This document shows positions 1,590 to 38,099 of a DNA stretch of 64,000 nt, piece after piece (the first letter of the stretch is position 1; each line of letters opens with the position of its first letter). The notes under the pieces were generated by a model. It made no database searches, was not told where the DNA came from, and saw nothing but the letters and a program-made list of their open reading frames with translations. The position numbers and the translations under genes are program-made. The stretch comes from Bradyrhizobium ottawaense (GTDB taxonomy: Bacteria; Pseudomonadota; Alphaproteobacteria; Rhizobiales; Xanthobacteraceae): positions 2,456,001 through 2,520,000 of the forward strand of contig NZ_CP029425.2 in assembly GCF_002278135.3 (NCBI RefSeq). Reading direction: 5' to 3'.

Positions 1590-3365
1590 ATGAGCGACAA
1601 GAGCCACGATCCGAACCAGATGACCGGCGCCGCGATGATCGTCCGCGCGCTCATCGATCACGGCGTGACCGACATTTTCGGCTATCCCGGCGGCGCGGTG
1701 CTTCCGATCTACGACGAGATCTTCCAGCAGAGCGAGGTCCAGCACATCCTGGTCCGTCACGAGCAGGGCGCGGGCCATGCCGCCGAAGGTTACGCGCGCT
1801 CGACCGGCAAGCCGGGCGTTGCGCTGGTGACCTCCGGCCCCGGCGCCACCAACATGGTGACGCCGCTCACCGACGCGCTGATGGACTCGATCCCGCTGGT
1901 CTGCATCTCCGGCCAGGTGCCGACCCATCTGATCGGCAACGACGCGTTCCAGGAATGCGACACCGTCGGCATCACGCGTCCCTGCACCAAGCACAATTGG
2001 CTGGTGCGCGACGTCAACGATCTCGCCAAGGTGCTGCACGAGGCGTTCTACGTTGCGACCACGGGCCGTCCCGGCCCCGTCTTGGTCGACGTTCCCAAGG
2101 ACGTGCAGTTCGCGACCGGCACCTATCATCCGCCGCGCAAATCCGACGTGCACCGCTCCTACGCGCCGCGCGTCAAGGGCGATGCGACCCAGATCCGCAA
2201 GGCCGTGGCGCTGCTCGCCCATGCCAAGCGCCCCGTGATCTACAGCGGCGGCGGCGTCATCAATTCCGGCCCCGAGGCGACCAGGCTGCTGCGCGAGCTG
2301 GTCGGGGTCACCGGCTTTCCGATCACCTCGACGCTGATGGGTCTCGGCGCATACCCTGCGTCGGGCAAGAACTGGCTCGGCATGCTCGGCATGCACGGCA
2401 CCTACGAAGCCAACATGACGATGCATGATTGCGACGTCATGCTGTGCGTCGGCGCGCGTTTCGACGACCGCATCACCGGCCGCGTCGACGCGTTCTCGCC
2501 GGGCTCGAAGAAGATCCACATCGACATCGACCCGTCCTCGATCAACAAGAACATCCGCGTCGACGTGCCGATCATCGGCGATTGCGGCAACATCCTCGGC
2601 GACATCCTCCAGGTGTTCAAGGCGGAGGCGAAGAAGCCCGACATCAAGGCGTGGTGGCAGCAGATCGCGCAGTGGCGCGCCCGCAACTCGCTCTATTACA
2701 AGAAGAGCAACGACATCATCCTGCCGCAGCACGCGATCCAGAGCCTGTTCGAGGCGACGCGCGGCAAGGATACCTACATCACGACGGAAGTGGGCCAGCA
2801 CCAGATGTGGGCGGCGCAGTTCTTCGGCTTCGAGGAGCCGCATCGCTGGATGACGTCGGGCGGTCTCGGCACCATGGGCTACGGCCTGCCGGCCGCGGTC
2901 GGCGTGCAGGTCGCTCATCCCGACAGCCTGGTCATCGACATTGCGGGCGATGCCTCGGTGCAGATGACGATGCAGGAGATGTCGACGGCGGTTCAGTACG
3001 AGCTGCCGATCAAGATCTTCATCCTGAACAACCAGTACATGGGCATGGTGCGGCAGTGGCAGCAGCTCCTCCATGGCAACCGGCTGTCGCATTCCTACTC
3101 GGAGGCGATGCCGGACTTCGTCAAGCTCGCGGAAGCTTACGGCGGCGTCGGATTCCAGGTGCACAAGCCCGGCGATCTCGACGGTGCCATCCAGGAGATG
3201 ATCTCGGTCAAGCGCCCGGTGCTGTTCGACTGCCGCGTCGCGTCGCTGGAAAACTGCTTCCCGATGATTCCGTCCGGCAAGGCGCACAACGAGATGCTGT
3301 TGCCGGAGCAGGCCAACGACGAGGCCACCGCCAAGGCTTTCGCCGGCGGCAAGGCGCTGGTGTGA
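1590..3365 (+). CDS. ilvI: Acetolactate synthase, large (catalytic) subunit
   Basis: Thiamine-diphosphate enzyme that condenses two pyruvates, or pyruvate with 2-oxobutyrate, in the first common step of valine, leucine and isoleucine synthesis. At 591 residues it is full length. The catalytic Glu lies in RHEQGAGHAAEGYAR (E58), and the ThDP/Mg-binding segment GDASVQMTMQEMSTAVQ is near residue 450, followed by the FILNNQYMGMVRQW stretch typical of the family. The ATG at 1590 is preceded by GGAGC. It is followed after 24 bases by ilvH and is preceded by the attenuator, so end-product control of transcription is likely. Confidence 0.97.
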   Translation: MSDKSHDPNQMTGAAMIVRALIDHGVTDIFGYPGGAVLPIYDEIFQQSEVQHILVRHEQGAGHAAEGYARSTGKPGVALVTSGPGATNMVTPLTDALMDSIPLVCISGQVPTHLIGNDAFQECDTVGITRPCTKHNWLVRDVNDLAKVLHEAFYVATTGRPGPVLVDVPKDVQFATGTYHPPRKSDVHRSYAPRVKGDATQIRKAVALLAHAKRPVIYSGGGVINSGPEATRLLRELVGVTGFPITSTLMGLGAYPASGKNWLGMLGMHGTYEANMTMHDCDVMLCVGARFDDRITGRVDAFSPGSKKIHIDIDPSSINKNIRVDVPIIGDCGNILGDILQVFKAEAKKPDIKAWWQQIAQWRARNSLYYKKSNDIILPQHAIQSLFEATRGKDTYITTEVGQHQMWAAQFFGFEEPHRWMTSGGLGTMGYGLPAAVGVQVAHPDSLVIDIAGDASVQMTMQEMSTAVQYELPIKIFILNNQYMGMVRQWQQLLHGNRLSHSYSEAMPDFVKLAEAYGGVGFQVHKPGDLDGAIQEMISVKRPVLFDCRVASLENCFPMIPSGKAHNEMLLPEQANDEATAKAFAGGKALV

Positions 3366-3389
3366 CGCGAGACATTTGAGGGGACGACA

Positions 3390-3932
3390 ATGAACCAGCC
3401 CGCATCCGCCTACTTCATCGAAGAGCGCCACGATCCGAACGAGACGCACACGCTTGCCGTGCTCGTGCAGAACGAGCCGGGCGTGCTCGCGCGCGTCATC
3501 GGCCTGTTCTCGGGCCGCGGCTACAACATCGAAAGCCTTACGGTCTCGGAGACCGAGGCCCAGAAACATCTGTCGCGCATCACCATCGTCACCACGGGCA
3601 CGCCGATGGTGATCGCGCAGATCAAGAACCAGCTCGACCGCATGATCCCGGTCTACCAGGTGGTCGACATGACCCAGACCCGGCGCTCGATCGAGCGGGA
3701 GCTGGCGATGGTGAAGGTGCGTGGGCAGGGCGAGCACCGGGTCGAGGCGCTCAGGCTCGCGGATGCGTTCCGCGCCCGCGTGATCGACGCAACGACCGAG
3801 AGCTTTGTGTTCGAGATCACAGGCAATACGGACAAGATCAATCAATATATCGACCTGATGCGCCCGCTCGGCCTCGTCGAGGTGTCGCGCACCGGTGTTG
3901 CCGCGATCGGCCGCGGGCCCGAAGGGATGTGA
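3390..3932 (+). CDS. ilvH: Acetolactate synthase, small (regulatory) subunit
   Basis: Regulatory partner of IlvI that confers valine feedback inhibition and raises activity. The 180-residue product begins its ACT domain at about residue 20 (HTLAVLVQNEPGVLARVIGLF, then GRGYNIESLTV). A second alpha/beta half follows (VEALRLADAFRARVID, later VFEITGNTDKINQYI). A GAGGGGACG element precedes the ATG. The next gene starts only 3 bases after the stop, so ilvI, ilvH and the methyltransferase probably share one transcript. Confidence 0.96.
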   Translation: MNQPASAYFIEERHDPNETHTLAVLVQNEPGVLARVIGLFSGRGYNIESLTVSETEAQKHLSRITIVTTGTPMVIAQIKNQLDRMIPVYQVVDMTQTRRSIERELAMVKVRGQGEHRVEALRLADAFRARVIDATTESFVFEITGNTDKINQYIDLMRPLGLVEVSRTGVAAIGRGPEGM

Positions 3933-3935
3933 ACC

Positions 3936-4631
3936 ATGCTGGCGCGCGACTGGTACTATAACGAGCGGAACCGGATGGGGATCGAGCCCGCGGTGGCCTC
4001 GATCTACGACGCCCACGACGATGCCGATCTGCGGGCGCGCGCCGCGCTGAAAATGCTGGGAGTCCAGCGCGGCTGGCGCATCGCCGACATCGGCTGCGGC
4101 AACGGCGTGCTGGCGACCGAAGCCGCGCTGCTGGGTGCCGAGGTCGACGCCATCGACATCTCGCCGGCGATGCTGGCGCTTGCCGAGATCTACGCGCGTG
4201 ATCGCAAGGCGCCCGTGCGCACCCAGTCCGCCGGCCTGCTCAGCTTCGCCTATCGGCCGGAATCCTACGATCTGATCGTCAGCGAATTCACGCTGCACCA
4301 TTTGCCGGATTTCTGGAAGGCGGTCGCGATGTCGCGAATTTTTCGCGCGCTCAAGCCGGGCGCGAGCTTTTATTTGCGCGATATCGTCTATGCCTCCATG
4401 CCCGACGCGATCGAGCGCGACGTGGAGCAATGGGCCGACTACCACATCAAGAATCACGATTTTTCGCGCGAGGGCGTGGTGATGCATATGCGCGACGAAT
4501 ATTCCACCTTCGGCTGGGTGATGGAGCGGATGCTGACCGACGTCGGTTTCACGCTGGTCTCGGCCGATTACCACGCACCGATGCACGGCACGTATCTGCT
4601 GCGCAAACCAAGAGCCGGCGAGCAAGGCTAG
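3936..4631 (+). CDS. Class I SAM-dependent methyltransferase, substrate unknown
   Basis: The 231-residue protein has a Rossmann methyltransferase core: motif I ADIGCGNGVLATEA (about residues 50-63), the acidic VDAIDISPAMLALA strand, and a motif IV-like LIVSEFTLHHLPDFW. The following RIFRALKPGASFYLRDIV stretch is typical of UbiE/Methyltransf_11 relatives. It is tightly coupled to ilvH (3-base gap). The SAM fold is clear; the substrate cannot be deduced. Position in the ilv transcript may only reflect shared expression. Confidence 0.85.
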   Translation: MLARDWYYNERNRMGIEPAVASIYDAHDDADLRARAALKMLGVQRGWRIADIGCGNGVLATEAALLGAEVDAIDISPAMLALAEIYARDRKAPVRTQSAGLLSFAYRPESYDLIVSEFTLHHLPDFWKAVAMSRIFRALKPGASFYLRDIVYASMPDAIERDVEQWADYHIKNHDFSREGVVMHMRDEYSTFGWVMERMLTDVGFTLVSADYHAPMHGTYLLRKPRAGEQG

Positions 4632-28051: not shown

Positions 28052-28209
28052 CCGCGGCGTTAACCTTTTCTCGCGTGCAGCCTGTCGTTATCGAGAGTCT
28101 CGCTGCGGTGCGAGATCACAATCGATGCCTCGGTCGCTACGTCCTTGATCTCGATGGAGCGCTGGCCGACAATGTCCGCGGTTCAATGTGAAGCTTTTTG
28201 GGGGAATTC

Positions 28210-29862
28210 GTGAATAGACCTGCCCGGGTCGTTGCCCAATCGACGTCGTCCGATTCGCCGCAAGGCATGACACTGCTGCGCGATCCCTTGCTCAACAAGG
28301 GCACCGCCTTCACGGAAGCCGAGCGCGAGGCCCTGGGCCTGCGCGGCCTGTTGCCGCCTTGCGTGCTGACGATGGAGACGCAGGCTCAGCGCGTCCTCAC
28401 CAATCTGCGCACGCTGCCGACCGATCTGGAGAAATACGTCGCGCTGAACGCGCTGCATGACCGCAACGAGGCGCTGTTCTTCCGCGTCGTCGTCGACAAC
28501 ATCGACGAGATCCAGCCGATCATCTACACGCCGACGGTCGGGCTTGCCTGCCAGAAATTCGGCCTGATCTTCCAGCGGCCGCGCGGCATGTTCATCTCCT
28601 CGCGCGATCGCGGGCAGATCGCCGAGATTCTGAAGAACTGGCCCTATTCGGCCAAGCTGATCGTCGTCACCGACGGCGAGCGCATTTTGGGACTTGGCGA
28701 TCTCGGCGCCAACGGCATGGGTATTCCTGTCGGCAAGCTCTCGCTCTATTCGGCCTGCGCCGGCGTGCATCCGGAGGCGTGCCTTCCGATCGTGCTCGAC
28801 GTCGGCACCAACAACGAAGAGCTTTTGAACGATCCCTATTATCTCGGCCTGCGCGAGCGGCGGCTGACGGGCGAGGCCTATGACAGCTTCGTCGACGAAT
28901 TCATGCAAGCCGCGCGAAAGACCTTCCCGGGCGTGCTGATCCAGTTCGAGGATTTCGCCAATCACTCGGCGTTCAAGCTGCTGCACAAATACCGGGATGA
29001 AGCCTGCGTCTTCAACGACGACATCCAGGGCACCGCGGCGGTCGCGCTCGCCGGCCTGTTCTCGGCGCTGCGCGTGAATGGCGGCAAGCTGAAGGATCAG
29101 AAGATCCTGTTCTTAGGGGCAGGCGAAGCGGCAACCGGCATCGCCGATCTCGTGGTGTCCGCGATGATGGCGGAGGGCGCCTCGGAAGCCGAAGCACTGC
29201 GGCGCAACTGGCTGGTGGATTCCCGCGGCCTCGTCGTCGGCGGCCGCGAAGGCCTCTCCGGCCACAAGCTGCGCTATGCGCACACCGGTCAGGCGCCGAT
29301 CAGCGACTTCCTCACCGCGATCAAGACGCTGAAGCCGACGGCGATCATCGGGGTTGCCGCGGTCGGCGGCGCCTTCACGCCCGAGGTGCTCGAGGCGATG
29401 GCCGAGCTCAACGAGCAGCCGATCGTGTTCGCGCTCTCCAACCCGACCTCGAAGGCCGAATGCTCGGCGGAGGACGCCTATCGCTACACCAAGGGGCGCG
29501 CGCTGTTCGCCTGCGGCAGTCCGTATGATCCGGTGACGCTCAACGGCCGCAGCTTCGTGCCGCGCCAGGGCAACAACTCCTACATCTTCCCCGGCGTCGG
29601 CCTCGGCGTCATCGCCAGCGGCTCGAAGCTGGTGACCGACGAGATGTTCATGGCGGCGGCCCATACGCTCGCTAATTGCGTCGGCAAGGAGGATCTCGCG
29701 CAGGGCAGCCTCTATCCGGCCCTGCCGCGCATCCGCGAAGTCTCGGTCCGCATCGCCGCGGCCGTTGCCGACGTCGCCTATCAACGCGGGCTCGCCGACG
29801 GACCCGCGCCCAACGACGTCAAGGCTCTGGTGCAGTCGCAGATGTACGAGCCGCATTACTGA
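28210..29862 (+). CDS. maeA: NAD-type malic enzyme
   Basis: Oxidative decarboxylation of malate to pyruvate. The 550-residue length matches the SfcA/MaeA class without the phosphotransacetylase tail seen in rhizobial DME/TME enzymes. Key segments are YTPTVGLACQKFGLIF, VTDGERILGLGDLGANGMGI, FEDFANHSAFKLL, FNDDIQGTAAVAL and the dinucleotide-binding LFLGAGEAATGIADL. The GTG at 28210 is chosen because GGGGGAA lies just upstream; a TTG at 28198 is less likely. Cofactor preference (NAD or NADP) is not certain from sequence. Confidence 0.93.
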   Translation: MNRPARVVAQSTSSDSPQGMTLLRDPLLNKGTAFTEAEREALGLRGLLPPCVLTMETQAQRVLTNLRTLPTDLEKYVALNALHDRNEALFFRVVVDNIDEIQPIIYTPTVGLACQKFGLIFQRPRGMFISSRDRGQIAEILKNWPYSAKLIVVTDGERILGLGDLGANGMGIPVGKLSLYSACAGVHPEACLPIVLDVGTNNEELLNDPYYLGLRERRLTGEAYDSFVDEFMQAARKTFPGVLIQFEDFANHSAFKLLHKYRDEACVFNDDIQGTAAVALAGLFSALRVNGGKLKDQKILFLGAGEAATGIADLVVSAMMAEGASEAEALRRNWLVDSRGLVVGGREGLSGHKLRYAHTGQAPISDFLTAIKTLKPTAIIGVAAVGGAFTPEVLEAMAELNEQPIVFALSNPTSKAECSAEDAYRYTKGRALFACGSPYDPVTLNGRSFVPRQGNNSYIFPGVGLGVIASGSKLVTDEMFMAAAHTLANCVGKEDLAQGSLYPALPRIREVSVRIAAAVADVAYQRGLADGPAPNDVKALVQSQMYEPHY

Positions 29863-30098: not shown

Positions 30099-30141
30099 TT
30101 GCCTCGCGCGGCCGCATATGCGACAATCTGTAGCGTTACAA
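30099..30141 (+). promoter_or_regulatory. blaI promoter with overlapping operator
   Basis: TTGCCT (30099-30104) and GACAAT (30122-30127) are spaced by 17 bases. Two bases downstream begins GTAGCGTTACAA (30130-30141), and GCGAC-N5-GTAGC (30120-30134) forms an imperfect dyad over the -10 and start site. The same arrangement recurs at 33124-33166. Position over the transcription start fits autorepression by BlaI. Confidence 0.6.
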
Positions 30142-30169: not shown

Positions 30170-30562
30170 ATGGACGATCGTTTGCCCGAACTGGGCGACC
30201 TCGAGCACGAGGTCATGCAATTGGTTTGGGCCCATGGTCCTGTCACGGCCGAAATCGTGCGCGAGCGGTTGTCGCGGCGTCTGAAGGAATCGACGGTGCG
30301 CACGGTGCTGCGTCGGCTCGAAGAAAAGGGCTATGCTAACCACACCGTGGACGGACGCACCTATGTCTACCACGCGGCCGAAGAGCGCTCGCGGGTTGCG
30401 GCCAAGGCGGTGCAGCGCATCGTCGACTGGTTCTGCAACGGCTCGATGGAAGAGGTCCTCGTCGGCATGGTGGACAACAAGATGCTCGACCAGCAGCAAT
30501 TGCGCACGCTGGCCGACCAGGTGGCCAAGGCGAAGAAGGCGAGGGGAGTGAAGAAAGAATGA
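30170..30562 (+). CDS. BlaI/MecI/CopY-family transcriptional repressor
   Basis: 130-residue winged-helix protein. The recognition-helix region ERLSRRLKESTVRTVLRRLEE follows LGDLEHEVMQLVWAHGPVTA, and the wing is NHTVDGRTYVYHA, as in BlaI and MecI. The C-terminal half is the dimerisation and proteolysis-sensitive region. It overlaps the M56 peptidase gene by 4 bases, the standard blaI-blaR1 arrangement. In that system the peptidase, once it senses its signal, relieves repression. Confidence 0.93.
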   Translation: MDDRLPELGDLEHEVMQLVWAHGPVTAEIVRERLSRRLKESTVRTVLRRLEEKGYANHTVDGRTYVYHAAEERSRVAAKAVQRIVDWFCNGSMEEVLVGMVDNKMLDQQQLRTLADQVAKAKKARGVKKE

Positions 30563-33075
30563 TCGCAACTCTGGCGGAGGCGGCACTGCGCTCCCTTGTG
30601 CTGGGAGGCGTCGTCTGGTTCGGTCTCAATCTGTTTCGCGTGCGCAATCCGCACGTTCACATGACGGCGTGGGTCGTCGTGCTGCTGGCGTCGCTGGCGA
30701 TGCCCTTCGTGATGCACTGGCCGACGCTCACGATCACCCGGCTGCCTTTGCCGGTCGTCGTGCCGAATGATTTTCTGCCGGCCGACATCTCGATGCCGGA
30801 GACGCCGCAGCCCGCGCTGCCAGTCGCGCCCGGCATTGCTATCGCGCCGCAAGCCAGAAGCGGGCTCTCGATCAATTGGTGGCTCATTGCCACCATCATC
30901 TATGCCGGCATCGCCGGCCTGTTGCTGCTGCGGCTCGCGATCGGGCTCTGCCTGACCTGGCGTCTGGCGCGCGCTGCAAAGCCGATGAATGGCCTGCAGA
31001 TGATCGCCGCCGACGTGCGCGTCAGCCGCGATGTCGGCGGCCCCGTCACCTTCGGCTCGACCATTCTGGTGCCGCCGCAATTCGCCGGCTGGGACGCGAA
31101 GAAGCGCCTCGCGGTGCTCGCGCATGAAGGCGCGCATGTCGCCAATCGCGATTTCTACGTCCTCCTGCTGGCATCGCTCAACCGCGCGGTGTTCTGGTTC
31201 AGCCCGTTCTCGTGGTGGCAGCTCGCGCGCCTTGCGGAGCTCGCCGAGATCATCAGCGACGCCGAGGCGATCGAGGTGATCGACGATCGGCTGTCCTATG
31301 CGGAAATCCTGCTCGATTTTGCCAGCACCGTGAAGCCGCGGCCGGTCGAGCTAGCGATGGCGCGGGCCTCGACCGTGCGCGCCCGTGTCGAGCGCATCAT
31401 CGCGGCTGCCGCCATGCCCGTCGCGGTCAGCTGGCGAAAGCGGCTCTGGATCGCGGCTGCGATCGTCCCCGTGGTGATCGTGTCCGCCGGCATGATCGCC
31501 TATCGCACGCCGGACGCGGCGCCCGCCGCCGCGGATGCCGGCGAGGTGCCCGCCCAGCATTACCGCCCGTTCGTCAATTTCTACGCCATGGGTCCGGCCT
31601 CGGTGTTCGCCATCTTCCGCGAGGGCGACGAGGTCTATGGCCAGCTCACCGGCCAGCGCAGGCTGCGCCTGACGGTCGGCAATGACGGCACGGCCACCTA
31701 CGCGGCCTCGTCCGGCGAGATCACCTTCGCGCTCGATGCGGAGCGCCGCTCGTCCGAGCTGACGCTGCGCATGAACGGCCGCGACATTCGTGCGGTTCGT
31801 GTCGCCGAGATGCCGGCGGCGGTAGCCGAGCCGGTATCGCTCGATCCGTATGTCGGTTGGTACAGGATTGCGCCAAACCGCGTGCTCACCGTGCGCCGCG
31901 ACGGCGACCGTCTCTCATTGCGGGAGACCGGCCAGGACGCAACGCAGGTGCTCCCCGAGGGCACCGACGCCTTCTCCTTCCGCGGCGATCATCTCGTGAT
32001 CTTCCTGCGCGACGAGCAGGCGAAAGTGTCGCGCCTGCTGGTGCAGAGCGCCATCTTCGGTGCCCGCCTGGGAGCCCGCGTCGACCCGGCGGTGGCCCAG
32101 GCGGTCGAGGCGGATTTCGCGCGCCGCCTCGCGAAGGTCTCCGACAGATTCAGGGAGCAGGTGCCGGCGGCCGGCAGTAAGGAGATGGTCTTGGCCGGCA
32201 TCGAGGATCTTCGCCGCGGCACGCCGGACTATGATCGCATGAGCGCGTCGCTCGCGGCCAAGGTCCACCGCTATCTCGCCGAAATGCAAACGACTTTCGT
32301 GGCGCTCGGCGCGGTGGAATCGATCTTCTTCCGCGGCGTCGGGCCCGGCGGCTATGACATCTATGGTGTGAAGTTCGCGAACGGCAGCGCGGAATTTCGC
32401 CTGATGATCGAGCCGGACGGCAAGGCCGGCGACGTGTTCTTCCGCGCCGACGGCAATGACGAGATCGGCGGCATGGTGTCTTGCGCGGAGGAGGCGAGCG
32501 TCCGCGGCCGCGCCGGCACCTCGCCGATCAGGATCATGCTCTATAACGAGTTGGCCGACGACATCCAGGTCTTCAATCTCGATGCGGACGGCAATCGCAA
32601 GGCGCAGATCGTCAGGCCCAACATGACCTGGTTCACCACCACCACCGTGAACAATCCCTGGATGATCGCCGACAAGTCCGGACGGTGTCTGGAGATCGTG
32701 ATGCCGGGGCGGCAGACCCGCTTCCACAATGTCGAAGCCTCGGCTATCGGCGCGCGTCCGGGCCGCGCCGCGCGCCGCGCCGTTCCGATCGCCAATGGCG
32801 AGGAGATGCTGCGCCGTTATATCGAGGGCGTCGGCAGGGGGCAGCCGGACTACGCGCACATGACGTCGGAAGTGGCCGACATCACGCGCCAGCAATTGCC
32901 GTTCGACCAGGCGATCCTGGCGCGGCTCGGCGCGCTGCGCGCGGTGTCCTTCCGCGGCGTCACCGCGCTCGACAGCGACATCTACATCGCCCAGTTCGCC
33001 AACGGTTCGGCGGAATGGCGCATCGGCGTCAGGAACGACACCATCACGAAGATTGCGCTCGGGCCGAATTTCTAG
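30559..33075 (+). CDS. BlaR1-like M56 metallopeptidase with unusual sensor region
   Basis: 838 residues. Two membrane helices (about 8-27 and 37-55) and a third near 108-135 lead into the M56 zinc site HEGAH (189-193), with likely third-ligand region AEIISDAEA (229-237). A fourth helix is at about 295-315. The extracytoplasmic part is not the penicillin-binding domain of BlaR1. It has two beta-rich segments (about 333-500, including YVGWYRIAPNRVLTVRRDGD), a module at about 524-632, a VHL-beta-like stretch (about 655-727, with NPWMIADKSGRC), and a second copy of the module (about 743-838). Both modules share LGA-x-FRGV and FANGSAE. Coupled to blaI. Confidence 0.88.
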   Translation: MIATLAEAALRSLVLGGVVWFGLNLFRVRNPHVHMTAWVVVLLASLAMPFVMHWPTLTITRLPLPVVVPNDFLPADISMPETPQPALPVAPGIAIAPQARSGLSINWWLIATIIYAGIAGLLLLRLAIGLCLTWRLARAAKPMNGLQMIAADVRVSRDVGGPVTFGSTILVPPQFAGWDAKKRLAVLAHEGAHVANRDFYVLLLASLNRAVFWFSPFSWWQLARLAELAEIISDAEAIEVIDDRLSYAEILLDFASTVKPRPVELAMARASTVRARVERIIAAAAMPVAVSWRKRLWIAAAIVPVVIVSAGMIAYRTPDAAPAAADAGEVPAQHYRPFVNFYAMGPASVFAIFREGDEVYGQLTGQRRLRLTVGNDGTATYAASSGEITFALDAERRSSELTLRMNGRDIRAVRVAEMPAAVAEPVSLDPYVGWYRIAPNRVLTVRRDGDRLSLRETGQDATQVLPEGTDAFSFRGDHLVIFLRDEQAKVSRLLVQSAIFGARLGARVDPAVAQAVEADFARRLAKVSDRFREQVPAAGSKEMVLAGIEDLRRGTPDYDRMSASLAAKVHRYLAEMQTTFVALGAVESIFFRGVGPGGYDIYGVKFANGSAEFRLMIEPDGKAGDVFFRADGNDEIGGMVSCAEEASVRGRAGTSPIRIMLYNELADDIQVFNLDADGNRKAQIVRPNMTWFTTTTVNNPWMIADKSGRCLEIVMPGRQTRFHNVEASAIGARPGRAARRAVPIANGEEMLRRYIEGVGRGQPDYAHMTSEVADITRQQLPFDQAILARLGALRAVSFRGVTALDSDIYIAQFANGSAEWRIGVRNDTITKIALGPNF

Positions 33076-33123: not shown

Positions 33124-33166
33124 TTGTCGGCCAGTGCCTTGAATGCTACGGTCAGTAGCATTACAA
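33124..33166 (+). promoter_or_regulatory. DUF1800 operon promoter with BlaI-like operator
   Basis: TTGTCG (33124-33129), 17-base spacer, TACGGT (33147-33152), then two bases later GTAGCATTACAA (33155-33166). AATGCTAC (33142-33149) and GTAGCATT (33155-33162) form a perfect 8-bp inverted repeat with a 5-base spacer. Layout and the GTAGC-R-TTACAA core match the blaI promoter. Confidence 0.6.
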
Positions 33167-33194: not shown

Positions 33195-34664
33195 ATGAGC
33201 AATTCCGCAAGGGCCGAAGCCGTGCTGGCTCTGCATCGTTTCGGGATGGGGCCGCGGCCGGGATCGATCGCCGCCGTCGGGAGCGACCCGCGCGGCGCGC
33301 TGATCGCCGAGCTCGACCGCCCGCTCGCGCTCACCGCGGCGAGCGCTCTGCCCCCCAGTGCGAAAGCCTATCGCACCGTGGCCGATGCCAATGCGCGGCG
33401 AGCCGCGCGGGCCAAGCAGGCGCAGCAGCAGGCCAAGAAGCAGCAGATGGCGTCGGCTGGCTCGGGCGATCAGGCCGAGGCGCGGCCCGAGGGGCAGGCA
33501 CAGGGCTATGCCCAGGAAAAGGATGCGGCCGAGATGGCGGCGAAGCAGGCGGCCGACGCCATTCCCGATCCAGGGCGTCCGATCTACCTGCAGGAAGCCA
33601 AGCTCCGCACGGAAGCCGCGCTCACGGCCGATATCGGTTTTGCCGAGCGGCTGGTCTGGTTCTGGTCCAACCATTTCTGCATCTCGGCCAACAAGATCCA
33701 GAGCATGTCCGGTGCCTATGAGCGCGAGGCGGTTCGCGCCAACGCGCTCGGCCGCTTCGTCGATCTCCTGCTGGCCGTCGAAGGCCATCCGGCCATGCTG
33801 TTCTATCTCGACAATCTGGAATCGATGGGCGCCAACTCGACGGCCGGCATCAATCGCAACCGCGGCCTCAACGAGAACATCGCGCGCGAGATCATGGAGC
33901 TGCATACGCTCGGCGTGCGCACCGGCTACACCCAGGACGACGTCATCAGCTTCGCCAACGTGATGACCGGCTGGACGCTGGTGCCGCCCGGCGCCGATCC
34001 CCAACATGGCGGCGAGTTCACCTTCAATCCGCGGCTGCACGAGCCCGGCGGACAGACCCTGCTCGGTAAGCGCTACGAGCAGGAGGATGTCGAGCAGGGC
34101 CGTGCCGTGCTGCGCGATCTCGCCGCGCATCCGGCGACCGCGACCCATGTCGCGACCAAGCTCGCGCGCCACTTCGTCACCGACGCGCCGCCGCCCACTC
34201 TGGTCGAGCAGATGACGAAGAGTTTTCGTGAGACCGATGGCGATCTCAAGCAGATCGCGATCGCGATGGTGTCGTCCGACGAGGCGTGGCGCGCGCCGCC
34301 GGCAAAGCTCAAGCGTCCGAGCGAATGGGTCGTCGGCATGGTGCGTGCGACCGGCATCACGCAGGTCGATCCCGTCCTCTACACCGGCGGCCAGCAGCTG
34401 CTCGGCGAGCCGCTATGGCGTCCGTCCGCGCCCAAGGGATATCCGGATGACGAAGCGAGCTGGATCGACGGCGTCGGCCGCCGGCTCGACGTCGCCAACA
34501 ATTTTGCCGAGCGCATATCCGGCATGGCCGATCCGCAAGCCATCGTCGAGGACGTCTTTGCATCCGAGATCGCGGCCGAGGTGAAGCAGGCGGTCGGCCG
34601 CGCCGAGAGCCGGCAGCAGGCGCTGGCGCTGCTGTTCATGTCGGCGGATTTTCAGAGGAGGTGA
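33195..34664 (+). CDS. DUF1800 family protein
   Basis: 489 residues. Family hallmarks include the opening LALHRFGMGPRPGSIAAVG, the central RLVWFWSNHFCIS, the LGVRTGYTQDDV segment and the C-terminal PKGYPDDEASWID. No signal peptide is obvious. An Ala/Gln/Lys-rich stretch (about residues 60-115) looks like a flexible insert. DUF1800 genes are nearly always paired with DUF1501 genes, as here. The biochemical role is unknown. Confidence 0.9.
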   Translation: MSNSARAEAVLALHRFGMGPRPGSIAAVGSDPRGALIAELDRPLALTAASALPPSAKAYRTVADANARRAARAKQAQQQAKKQQMASAGSGDQAEARPEGQAQGYAQEKDAAEMAAKQAADAIPDPGRPIYLQEAKLRTEAALTADIGFAERLVWFWSNHFCISANKIQSMSGAYEREAVRANALGRFVDLLLAVEGHPAMLFYLDNLESMGANSTAGINRNRGLNENIAREIMELHTLGVRTGYTQDDVISFANVMTGWTLVPPGADPQHGGEFTFNPRLHEPGGQTLLGKRYEQEDVEQGRAVLRDLAAHPATATHVATKLARHFVTDAPPPTLVEQMTKSFRETDGDLKQIAIAMVSSDEAWRAPPAKLKRPSEWVVGMVRATGITQVDPVLYTGGQQLLGEPLWRPSAPKGYPDDEASWIDGVGRRLDVANNFAERISGMADPQAIVEDVFASEIAAEVKQAVGRAESRQQALALLFMSADFQRR

Positions 34665-34666
34665 GC

Positions 34667-35914
34667 ATGGGCGTCAATCATCTGCCCACGCGGCGCGAGC
34701 TTCTGGTCGGCTCCGGTGCGCTGTTCGCATGGAGCCAGATGCCCAGGATCGCGCGCGCCGAAGGCCGCGACCCGCGCCTGCTCGTCATCGTGCTGCGCGG
34801 CGCGCTCGACGGCCTCGGTGCCGTCGCGCCGGTCGGCGATCCCGACTGGATCTCCTTGCGCGGCGATCGCGCGCTGCTGCTGGACGGCAAGCCGCCGGCG
34901 CTGCCGCTCGACGCCTTCTTCGCGCTCAACCCGGCGATGCCGAATTTGCACCGGCTCTACAGGAGCGGCAAGGCGGCGATCGTCCATGCCACGGCCACGC
35001 CCTATCGCGAGCGTTCGCATTTCGACGGCCAGGACGTGCTGGAGAGCGGGCTTGTCAAGCCCGGTATGACCAGCTCGGGATGGCTCAACCGCGCGCTGCT
35101 CGCGCTGGAATCGGGCGGCCGCGTCGACCCGCGCGGTAGCCGCGCGCTCGGCATCGGCTCGGTGACGCCGCTGGTGGTGCGCGGCTCCGCGCCTGTGATG
35201 ACGTGGGTGCCGCAAAGGCTCTTGCCGGCGAGCGAGGACACGCAGAGCCGCCTGCTCGATCTCTACCAGCACACCGACCCGAAGCTCGCGACCGTGCTGC
35301 AGGCGCGCATGAAGCTCGCTTCGCTCAGCGGGGCGCCGGGCACGGGCGAGGCGATGTCTGACGATCCAACCCTGGCGCCGCCGGGCATCGCACGCGTGCG
35401 CGCCTACTTCGCAGACGCCGCCGGCACGGCCGCGCGCTATCTCGCCAAGCCCGACGGCCCGCGCGTCGGCGCCATGGGCTTCGTCGGCTGGGATACGCAT
35501 ATCGCGGAAGGCGCGGCCTCGGGCCAGCTCTACAATCTGCTCGGTGCGCTCGACGGCGCCTTCGTCGCGATCGAGAGCAACATGGGCGAAGCCTGGAAGG
35601 AGACGGTGGTGGCCGTCGTCACCGAGTTCGGCCGCACCGCCCGCATCAACGGCACGCAGGGCACCGATCACGGCACCGGCACGGTCGCCTTCCTGATCGG
35701 CGGCGGGCTCGCCGGCGGCCGTGTGATCGCGGACTGGCCGGGACTGAAGCCGGCGCAGCTGTTCGAGGATCGCGACCTCAAGCCGACCACCGATCTGCGC
35801 GCCGTGCTCAAGGGCCTGCTGAGGGATCATTTGCGCGTCGAAGAGACAGTGCTGGCGGAAACGGTCTTTCCCGGCAGCGCAGACATCAAGCCGATGGGGG
35901 GCCTTGTGGCCTGA
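34667..35914 (+). CDS. DUF1501 family protein, Tat-exported
   Basis: 415 residues with a twin-arginine signal (TRRELLVGSGALFAWS, then a cleavage-like IARAEG). The mature protein has the sulfatase-like DUF1501 fold: LLVIVLRGALDGLGAV at its start, HFDGQDVLESG in the middle, and TEFGRTARINGTQGTDHGTG with a conserved acidic/His cluster. The ATG at 34667 follows GAGGAGGTGA, which also spans the DUF1800 stop, so the pair is coupled. Likely periplasmic; substrate unknown. Confidence 0.9.
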   Translation: MGVNHLPTRRELLVGSGALFAWSQMPRIARAEGRDPRLLVIVLRGALDGLGAVAPVGDPDWISLRGDRALLLDGKPPALPLDAFFALNPAMPNLHRLYRSGKAAIVHATATPYRERSHFDGQDVLESGLVKPGMTSSGWLNRALLALESGGRVDPRGSRALGIGSVTPLVVRGSAPVMTWVPQRLLPASEDTQSRLLDLYQHTDPKLATVLQARMKLASLSGAPGTGEAMSDDPTLAPPGIARVRAYFADAAGTAARYLAKPDGPRVGAMGFVGWDTHIAEGAASGQLYNLLGALDGAFVAIESNMGEAWKETVVAVVTEFGRTARINGTQGTDHGTGTVAFLIGGGLAGGRVIADWPGLKPAQLFEDRDLKPTTDLRAVLKGLLRDHLRVEETVLAETVFPGSADIKPMGGLVA

Positions 35915-36088: not shown

Positions 36089-37258
36089 ATGAGACGCCGC
36101 CGGTTCATTTCACTTCTCGGGGCAGCCGCGCTGGCGCCGCTCTCCGCTCCGCCAGTATCTGCGGAGCCATCTGGCGGCTGCGGTGTTCCGCTTGCGCGAG
36201 ATGATGGCTGGCCTGCCGGCTCCGTCAACGACGATGGGCTCGTCAACCGCGACGTGCTGTGCAGGATGGGGGATCGGCTCGCATCAAGCGATGCCAACAT
36301 TCATGCAGTTCTGGTCGCCCGCGACGGCAAGCTGGCGTTCGAACGTTACTTCAAGGGCGCCGACGAGATACCCGGCTACATCTACGGCCGCCGGGTCGAA
36401 ACCATCGCCTTCGATGCCGATACGTTGCACAACATGAAGTCTGTTTCGAAGAGCGTTGCATCTCTCGTCGTCGGGATTGCGATCGATCGCGGGCTGATAC
36501 GCGGCGTCACCGAGCCGATCTTCAGCTTCTTCCCCGAGCTGTCCGACTTGCGTTCTCCCGAAAAGGACCGCATCCGGCTGGCGCATGTGCTCACCATGTC
36601 GATGGGCCTGAAGTGGGTCGAGGCGACACCCGCGACGGGAGACGACGACAATGACGAGACGCGGATGCATATGGCATGGGATCCGTGTCGCTACGTTCTC
36701 GGTCTTCCCGTGACCGCCGCGGCAGGGCAGGAGTTCTTCTACAACACCGGCGCGCTCACGCTTGTGTCGGCCATCATCCGCAAGGCGACTGGACGTCCCC
36801 TCGACGAATTTGCGCGCGAGAATTTGTTCGAACCTCTGGGTATAACCGGCACGGCGTGGGGCCGGTACAGGGGGGATACCGATGCCGGAGGAGGATTGCG
36901 CCTGCGGCCGCGCGACATGGCCAAGATCGGCCAACTCGTGCTTGCGGGCGGTCGCTGGAACGACCGCCAGATCGTTTCCAAGGCATGGATCGAGGCTTCG
37001 ACGGCGGAGAAGATCAAGGCGACGGACGATCAATCCTACGGATATCTGTGGTGGCGCGGCCAAGCGCGCCTCAATGACCGGAAGGTCGCCTGGGTCGGCG
37101 CGCTGGGGCGCGGCGGGCAGTCGATCCGCATCGTGCCGGAACTCGATCTCGTCGTCGCAGTGACTGCGGGTTACTATCAGGACTACAGCCCGAAAGCGTT
37201 TCAACTCCAGTTCGGTATATTCAGGGACGTCCTGCGCGCGATCCCGCCTCCGGCCTGA
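36089..37258 (+). CDS. Class C beta-lactamase-fold serine hydrolase, Tat-exported
   Basis: 389 residues with a twin-arginine-like signal (RRRRFISLLGAAAL, cleavage near VSAEPSG). The SxxK motif is S118-V-S-K121 within NMKSVSKSVASLVVGIA, and the YxN-type triad residue set is Y218-N-T. A GAGGAGAAG ribosome-binding site precedes the ATG. Fold members include AmpC, D-aminopeptidases and esterases. This one resembles the broad 'serine hydrolase' group rather than true AmpC, so beta-lactam resistance should not be assumed. It lies downstream of the BlaI-type regulator. Confidence 0.9.
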   Translation: MRRRRFISLLGAAALAPLSAPPVSAEPSGGCGVPLARDDGWPAGSVNDDGLVNRDVLCRMGDRLASSDANIHAVLVARDGKLAFERYFKGADEIPGYIYGRRVETIAFDADTLHNMKSVSKSVASLVVGIAIDRGLIRGVTEPIFSFFPELSDLRSPEKDRIRLAHVLTMSMGLKWVEATPATGDDDNDETRMHMAWDPCRYVLGLPVTAAAGQEFFYNTGALTLVSAIIRKATGRPLDEFARENLFEPLGITGTAWGRYRGDTDAGGGLRLRPRDMAKIGQLVLAGGRWNDRQIVSKAWIEASTAEKIKATDDQSYGYLWWRGQARLNDRKVAWVGALGRGGQSIRIVPELDLVVAVTAGYYQDYSPKAFQLQFGIFRDVLRAIPPPA

Positions 37259-37445: not shown

Positions 37446-37580
37446 CCGATTCAGGACGCGTCACTGTGGTCGAATCGTCACAGCTGACGCGAAACGGCGG
37501 CGGCCCCACGCCCGCTTTTGTTCCGACAAGGTTCTGCCCTCATTGCCCACCGAAATTCCGTGCAGTTCGGAGGGCGCATC

Positions 37581-38099
37581 ATGTCTCGCATTGCACGTGC
37601 CGAAACTGCCCGGATTTCGCTGGCAACCTCGAGCCGGCTGCTGCTGGCCATCGTCGGGGCCGCCTCGCTCGCCGCCTGCGCGCAATCGCCGGTCGGCCGC
37701 CAGAAGGCCGATCTCGCGGCCACCGGCCGGCAGGCCGCGGTCGAGCGGCCGCACCGGGTGGCGGCGCTGCATCCAAGGCCGGTCAGCCGGGTGCGCATTC
37801 CCGATGGCGATGCAAAGCAAGCGACCTCGCACGGCGTTGCCAGCTTCTATTCGGATACGGAGACTGCGAGCGGCGAGAAGTTCGACAAGAACGAATTGAC
37901 CGCGGCCCATCCGACCCTGCCATTCGGCACCAAGCTGCGCGTCACCGACGTTTCCTCCGGCCGCTTCGTGACCGTCAGGGTCAACGATCGCGGTCCCTAT
38001 ATCCGCGGACGCGTCGTCGACGTCTCGCCTTCCGCGGCCGAGGCGCTCGGCATGGTCGATAGGGGCATCACCAATGTCCGGCTCGACGTCGTGCAATGA
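37581..38099 (+). CDS. rlpA: RlpA-like septal-ring lipoprotein
   Basis: 172 residues; ATG 37581 follows GGAGGG. The signal peptide ends in a lipobox (SLAACAQS), so the protein is lipid-anchored. The C-terminal double-psi beta-barrel has GVASFYSDTETASGEKFDKN, then FGTKLRVTDVSSGRFVTVRV and NDRGPYIRGRVVDVS, with the catalytic Asp of RlpA-type lytic transglycosylases. A second, secreted RlpA-like protein lies at 58317-58628. Confidence 0.9.
   Translation: MSRIARAETARISLATSSRLLLAIVGAASLAACAQSPVGRQKADLAATGRQAAVERPHRVAALHPRPVSRVRIPDGDAKQATSHGVASFYSDTETASGEKFDKNELTAAHPTLPFGTKLRVTDVSSGRFVTVRVNDRGPYIRGRVVDVSPSAAEALGMVDRGITNVRLDVVQ

Follow-up and report, generated by a model that had tools for sequence, protein, structure and literature searches.

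A BlaI/BlaR1-type pair of Bradyrhizobium ottawaense with a von Hippel-Lindau domain in the receptor tail and a probable operator in common with a DUF1800-DUF1501 operon

What does a BlaR1-like receptor respond to, and which genes does its repressor control, when the receptor carries no penicillin-binding sensor? The question is raised by a two-gene locus in the 8.59 Mb genome of Bradyrhizobium ottawaense, within a stretch of 64,000 nucleotides (the window; contig NZ_CP029425.2, positions 2,456,001 to 2,520,000), where a BlaI-type repressor gene (blaI, 30170..30562, + strand; PF03965, E 5.5e-29, 101 bits) shares 4 bases of overlap with the gene of an 838-residue BlaR1-like M56 receptor protease (30559..33075, + strand). 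We consider the locus best explained, at a probability of roughly three in four, as a one-repressor proteolytic pair of the BlaI/BlaR1 kind in which sensor and target have both been exchanged, an explanation whose computed parts are domain architecture, von Hippel-Lindau (VHL) homology, a common conserved site and gene co-occurrence. The case suggests that BlaR1/BlaI, the machinery of the staphylococcal penicillin-resistance switch, can carry a wholly different sensor and act on another target, with a candidate named for each: a VHL beta domain is placed in a membrane receptor, and the DUF1800-DUF1501 pair, of unknown function, gains a candidate regulator.

The N-terminal half of the receptor is that of a BlaR1-like M56 peptidase, as an earlier note on this DNA had claimed. 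Residues 1-312 (30559..31494, + strand) comprise four predicted membrane helices and an M56 zinc-protease domain, adopt the BlaR1 membrane/protease fold, carry the HEGAH zinc motif at residues 189-193 and match PF05569 at 51.8 bits (cut-off 31); the NCBIfam BlaR1 equivalog scores 34.2 bits, far short of its cut-off of 400. The repressor possesses the Penicillinase_R domain and its gene adjoins an M56 gene, as expected of the BlaI family, and PF03965 exceeds its cut-off at this one place in the genome, the runner-up scoring 20.6 against a cut-off of 22.6. The sensor of BlaR1 and MecR1 is class D beta-lactamase-like (PMC7593790), and it is in lacking such a sensor that the receptor departs from the BlaR1/MecR1 proteins that act with BlaI/MecI (MEROPS M56). 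A Pfam search at E<=10 found no penicillin-binding family in the receptor, no SxxK motif occurs C-terminal of residue 294, and other domains account for the tail, all in agreement with the note's claim that a penicillin-binding domain is missing. We infer that the receptor senses something other than beta-lactams.

The tail begins with two DUF3471 beta barrels (residues 333-510; 31555..32088, + strand; PF11954, 34.6 bits, cut-off 29.3), which resemble the C-terminal DUF3471 barrels of the D-aminopeptidase of Ochrobactrum anthropi (1ei5), although the receptor differs from that enzyme in having no detected catalytic serine-hydrolase domain and no credible PDB sequence match. The barrels resemble accessory domains of penicillin-recognising hydrolases, and a PF00144 serine hydrolase is encoded nearby (36089-37258, E 1.6e-37), so that the receptor might still answer beta-lactams or penicillin-related compounds, through the barrels or an unseen site, with the hydrolase as the answer gene. 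We regard this as very improbable: the tail holds neither of the penicillin-binding signatures sought above, the hydrolase falls far under the cut-off of every listed class C beta-lactamase model, and it is not a constant neighbour, with matches in 3 of 20 stretches (nearly whole in G065 and G053, a fragment in G016), for which reason it was also rejected as the main target.

Behind the barrels, a VHL beta domain (residues 640-730; 32476..32748, + strand) is flanked by module A, a DUF3887-like alpha+beta unit (residues 534-632; 32158..32454, + strand), and module B (residues 742-836; 32782..33066, + strand). The repeat test identified the modules as two copies of one unit, bearing out the internal repeat proposed around the VHL-like stretch; relative to the DUF3887 family (4hyz), the module occurs twice around a VHL domain, and neither copy has a Pfam match. 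The VHL reading of the tail is right. The comparison of this region with PF01847 that the note had called for gave a divided answer, as a direct Pfam search found no match in the receptor, a further direct search was weak and an orthologue (L031) reached 12.1 bits against a cut-off of 21, whereas profile homology to PF01847 proteins was established (97.7%, E 1.5e-12, 0 of 200 shuffles), with the protein L111 serving as a bridge. The Pfam miss was not counted as a refutation, given that the profile built from orthologues did find PF01847 proteins, and the VHL-type fold that the note had suspected is present at residues 640-730. PF01847 gave no match across the receptor's own genome, PDB sequence searches with VHL, barrel and module B profiles returned nothing usable, and NCBIfam has no model that covers the tail, with matches in 0 of 33 members; weak nanobody and allantoinase matches were dismissed as chance.

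The likeness of the receptor domain to PF01847 proteins lies in fold, profile and a cysteine pair that is invariant in six bacterial proteins, while its position in a receptor tail, its score below the Pfam cut-off and a replaced pocket set it apart. Cys642 and Cys710, the sole cysteines of the tail, both fall inside the domain. The residue correspondence between the receptor and the human VHL tumour suppressor (pVHL) is our own, based on pVHL sequence and residue spacing. Trp88, Tyr98, His110, Ser111, His115 and Trp117 line the hydroxyproline pocket of pVHL (PMC9528729). The receptor places Asn673, Gln683, Thr694, Thr695, Asn699 and Trp701 at these positions, so that Trp88, Tyr98 and His115 are replaced and Ser111 has become Thr. 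Among 33 sequences, position 673 is N in 24, K in 6, G in 2 and S in 1, position 683 is Q in 24, and position 699 is N in 17, S in 11, D in 3 and T in 2; only Thr695 and Trp701, at the Ser111 and Trp117 places, are constant (33/33), as is the cysteine pair (33/33). With two of six pocket places constant, the VHL fold is retained and the canonical pocket is not, and the substitutions disfavour canonical hydroxyproline binding. As to the Elongin C-binding alpha domain of pVHL, the alignments stop at pVHL residue 156, and module B comes next in the receptor.

A possible alternative, to which we accord a minority share of the probability, is that the tail, instead of reading a small ligand, binds to a partner protein or to the cell wall, as a scaffold or envelope-stress sensor, with the VHL domain as a protein-binding platform. 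Three points would suit this alternative: the beta domain of pVHL is itself a peptide binder; most pocket side chains of the receptor are substituted, whereas Thr695, Trp701 and the cysteines are kept; and one of the putative targets carries a signal for export to the compartment of the tail. The recurrence of DUF3471 plus module behind MerR domains (L042, L044) fits ligand binding better. The same unit follows a Glyoxalase_8-like N-terminus (L040, L041), and these MerR- and Glyoxalase_8-like proteins are candidate one-component sensors. DUF3471 plus module is probably a mobile binding cassette.

Bacterial VHL proteins as such are already in print (PMC9002001). We also observed a VHL beta domain in small alphaproteobacterial proteins that appear to be secreted (L101-L107). 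In the six of them that were aligned, the places of Trp88, Tyr98, His115 and Trp117 are unchanged (invariant columns W35, Y45, H62 and W64), as is the cysteine pair, and these small proteins are possible hydroxyproline readers, judging from their sequences. In the bridging protein L111 (G644, 1-2079), ricin-B-type lectin-like repeats precede the VHL beta domain.

On the question of how widely the architecture occurs, a search of 347 genomes of the order recovered the entire module-VHL-module tail in 5, each of them a Bradyrhizobium, while a single module occurs in ten genomes of seven other genera (in G603 and G835 with some preceding residues). The collection holds 56 orthologous loci, 55 from Bradyrhizobium and one titled Frankia sp. 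RB7 (L067), a label that is probably wrong for a locus of Bradyrhizobium type. Three Bradyrhizobium genomes (L036-L038) carry a shorter pair, with a BlaI 65-67% identical to that of the window and an M56 protein that has a single DUF3471 and a single module (Pfam was run on L036 only). The long receptor probably arose by doubling of DUF3471 and module and acquisition of the VHL domain. A module match in another family of the order (G835:C5:24-365, E 4.5e-15, in a 566-residue frame) could, from its sequence, mark a short M56-DUF3471-module receptor that occurs beyond Bradyrhizobium. The open-access literature searched yielded no report of the M56-DUF3471-module-VHL-module architecture and no occurrence of the term DUF3471.

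The second exchanged part is the target. The DNA ahead of blaI, aligned from 71 non-redundant sequences out of 93, contains a conserved block near TGCGAC..T.GTA.C.TTACA; searched in the window's own genome at up to 3 mismatches, it gave 6 sites (8 for the reversed pattern), one of which begins 51 bases upstream of a DUF1800 gene. In the alignment upstream of DUF1800 (52 non-redundant of 66 sequences), TG-TAC and GTAGC are conserved columns, and we merged both into one consensus for the two promoters, TGYKACNNNNYGTAGCRYTAC. It matches the operator-like site TGCGACAATCTGTAGCGTTAC upstream of blaI (30119..30139, + strand) with 0 mismatches and a second operator-like site, TGCTACGGTCAGTAGCATTAC, upstream of DUF1800 (33144..33164, + strand) with 1 mismatch; these are the only sites in the genome at one mismatch or fewer. 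The second site leads to two putative targets, a DUF1800 protein (33195..34664, + strand; PF08811, E 2.6e-114) and a DUF1501 protein (34661..35914, + strand; PF07394, E 1.5e-28) with a twin-arginine translocation (Tat)-like signal, TRRELLVGSGALFAW, read by eye, and constitutes a further difference from BlaR1/MecR1. DUF1800 and DUF1501 have been described as an operon pair beside bacterial chitin synthases, the latter with a twin-arginine motif, and the account given there assigns them no known function (PMC5122149). Small autoregulated BlaI regulons are known in Clostridium thermocellum (PMC8457756).

Across 64 loci (527 kb), the merged pattern has 92 matches and the reversed pattern 0. A scan of 117 genomes of the genus gave 78 exact matches, spread over 44 genomes, and the reversed control gave 41 (summed by hand); of the 78, 35 lie at a close DUF1800 gene (identity 71% or more), 30 at the blaI promoter and 13 elsewhere, comprising eight in genomes without a located receptor, one 3' of the receptor in G017 and four at other places. 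Of 59 loci (L031-L035 together with 54 of L045-L100, some of them from genomes of the genus scan), 46 have an exact blaI site, 10 a site with one mismatch and 3 a site with two; beyond this set, L036-L038 have two mismatches and G077 three. The DUF1800 site is exact in 33 of 36 genomes with a close DUF1800, the others being the window and G063 (one mismatch each) and G077 (three), and in 44 of 44 cases among L031-L035 and L045-L100. When 150-base pieces were drawn at random from the window, the best match had at least 4 mismatches in all but 11 of 3000 pieces, and these 11 (0 or 1 mismatch) are taken to overlap the two sites themselves.

The site stays with DUF1800 when other sequence intervenes after the receptor (L033, L034, L071, L079, L093), when DUF1800 is remote on the same contig (G063, 30988 versus 7.80 Mb, one mismatch) and when it is on another contig (G045, exact), and thus tracks DUF1800 and not merely the receptor 3' end. 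The site could instead belong to another regulator, with the BlaI-M56 pair a bystander of the DUF1800-DUF1501 operon; the common element may indeed overlap promoter elements, so that the likeness would partly be that of promoters. This we think unlikely, given that the blaI copy is dyad-like (GCKACA-NNN-TGTAGC), that it stands before blaI with no more than two mismatches in every one of the 59 loci as well as in the divergent L036-L038 pairs, and that no receptor-less genome of G000-G088 yielded a close DUF1800. Among these 89 genomes, 35 encode a full-length receptor and 29 a close DUF1800, and all 29 are receptor genomes, compared with 0 of the 54 that lack it (Fisher p 7e-18, shared ancestry and linkage being ignored). 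The searches took the best 6 and best 13 candidates per genome, so that a copy may have been missed. Some DUF1800 match exists in 109 of the 117 genomes, and those outside the 36 close ones, at most 54% identical among the matches listed, were excluded from the count. The common conserved site and this co-occurrence lead us to conclude that BlaI probably controls DUF1800-DUF1501 through a probable operator, new here, that is deduced from promoter sequences, and they lend computational support to the note's suggestion that the BlaI circuit has been rewired.

Several observations weigh against this explanation. At one mismatch, the reversed pattern is commoner than the true one in the window's own genome (6 versus 2), and since own-genome counts do not exceed that control, the case for the site is carried by where it lies and how well it is conserved. 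In the window, the site before DUF1800 is itself not exact, and isolated sites elsewhere (for example in G013, G020, G016 and G721) are meaningless, as the reversed pattern is about equally frequent outside the locus. Six of the 35 genomes with the receptor lack a close DUF1800, which means either that there are further targets or that the circuit is in decay in these genomes; all six retain the blaI site, exactly in five and with one mismatch in the other, and in two, G017 and G013, a site still stands 3' of the receptor at the usual DUF1800 position. The loci are related and some are duplicated under two names (L035 is L099), so the counts are not independent. Structure models were built on 33 and 37 related sequences, and with so few sequences and modest scores (best models, predicted local distance difference test 81 and 75, predicted template-modelling score 0.56 and 0.40; other models 59-72 by the former measure), domain packing is unreliable. 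Finally, mean identity in eight divergent orthologues is 55% for the VHL part and 49% for the second barrel, compared with 68% for the protease.

In the exchanged-sensor, exchanged-target circuit that we favour, we infer the topology, BlaI binding at the site and the tail as sensor, and take the activation step by analogy with BlaR1. The M56 receptor would be an inner-membrane protein with a cytoplasmic zinc protease and a periplasmic tail, and BlaI would repress its own operon and the DUF1800-DUF1501 operon via TGYKAC-N4-YGTAGCRYTAC at both promoters. Binding of a ligand or partner protein by the tail would, as in BlaR1, activate the protease, which would inactivate BlaI, and loss of BlaI would allow DUF1800, the DUF1501 protein with its Tat-like signal, and more receptor and repressor to be made. 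As the barrels resemble D-aminopeptidase, our guess is a peptide-like or cell-wall-derived ligand. A far more specific and very improbable version has the VHL domain, between its modules and following the two D-aminopeptidase-like barrels, reading a plant- or wall-derived peptide or glycopeptide, with DUF1800/DUF1501 production by BlaI proteolysis as output; for a nodule bacterium, legume hydroxyproline-rich glycoproteins would be an obvious candidate, but the replaced pocket residues speak against hydroxyproline itself. If true, VHL-type recognition would serve bacterial extracellular sensing, apart from ubiquitin and oxygen.

Two loci show the pair in altered form. In L194 (G077), blaI is spread over two reading frames and the two sites deviate alike from the pattern, through assembly error or a shared change; G077 was dropped as a natural test, as another of its genes also has stops and assembly errors are possible. 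In L202 (G033, 3259-3963), blaI and its site are kept, the receptor survives as short fragments, and DUF1800 was not found within the stretch. The window also contains a malic enzyme gene (28198-29862) and a DPBB protein (37518-38099), presumably of the RlpA kind. The PF00144 hydrolase moves between loci, lying either 3' of DUF1501 or 3' of the receptor (L033, 6084-7238).
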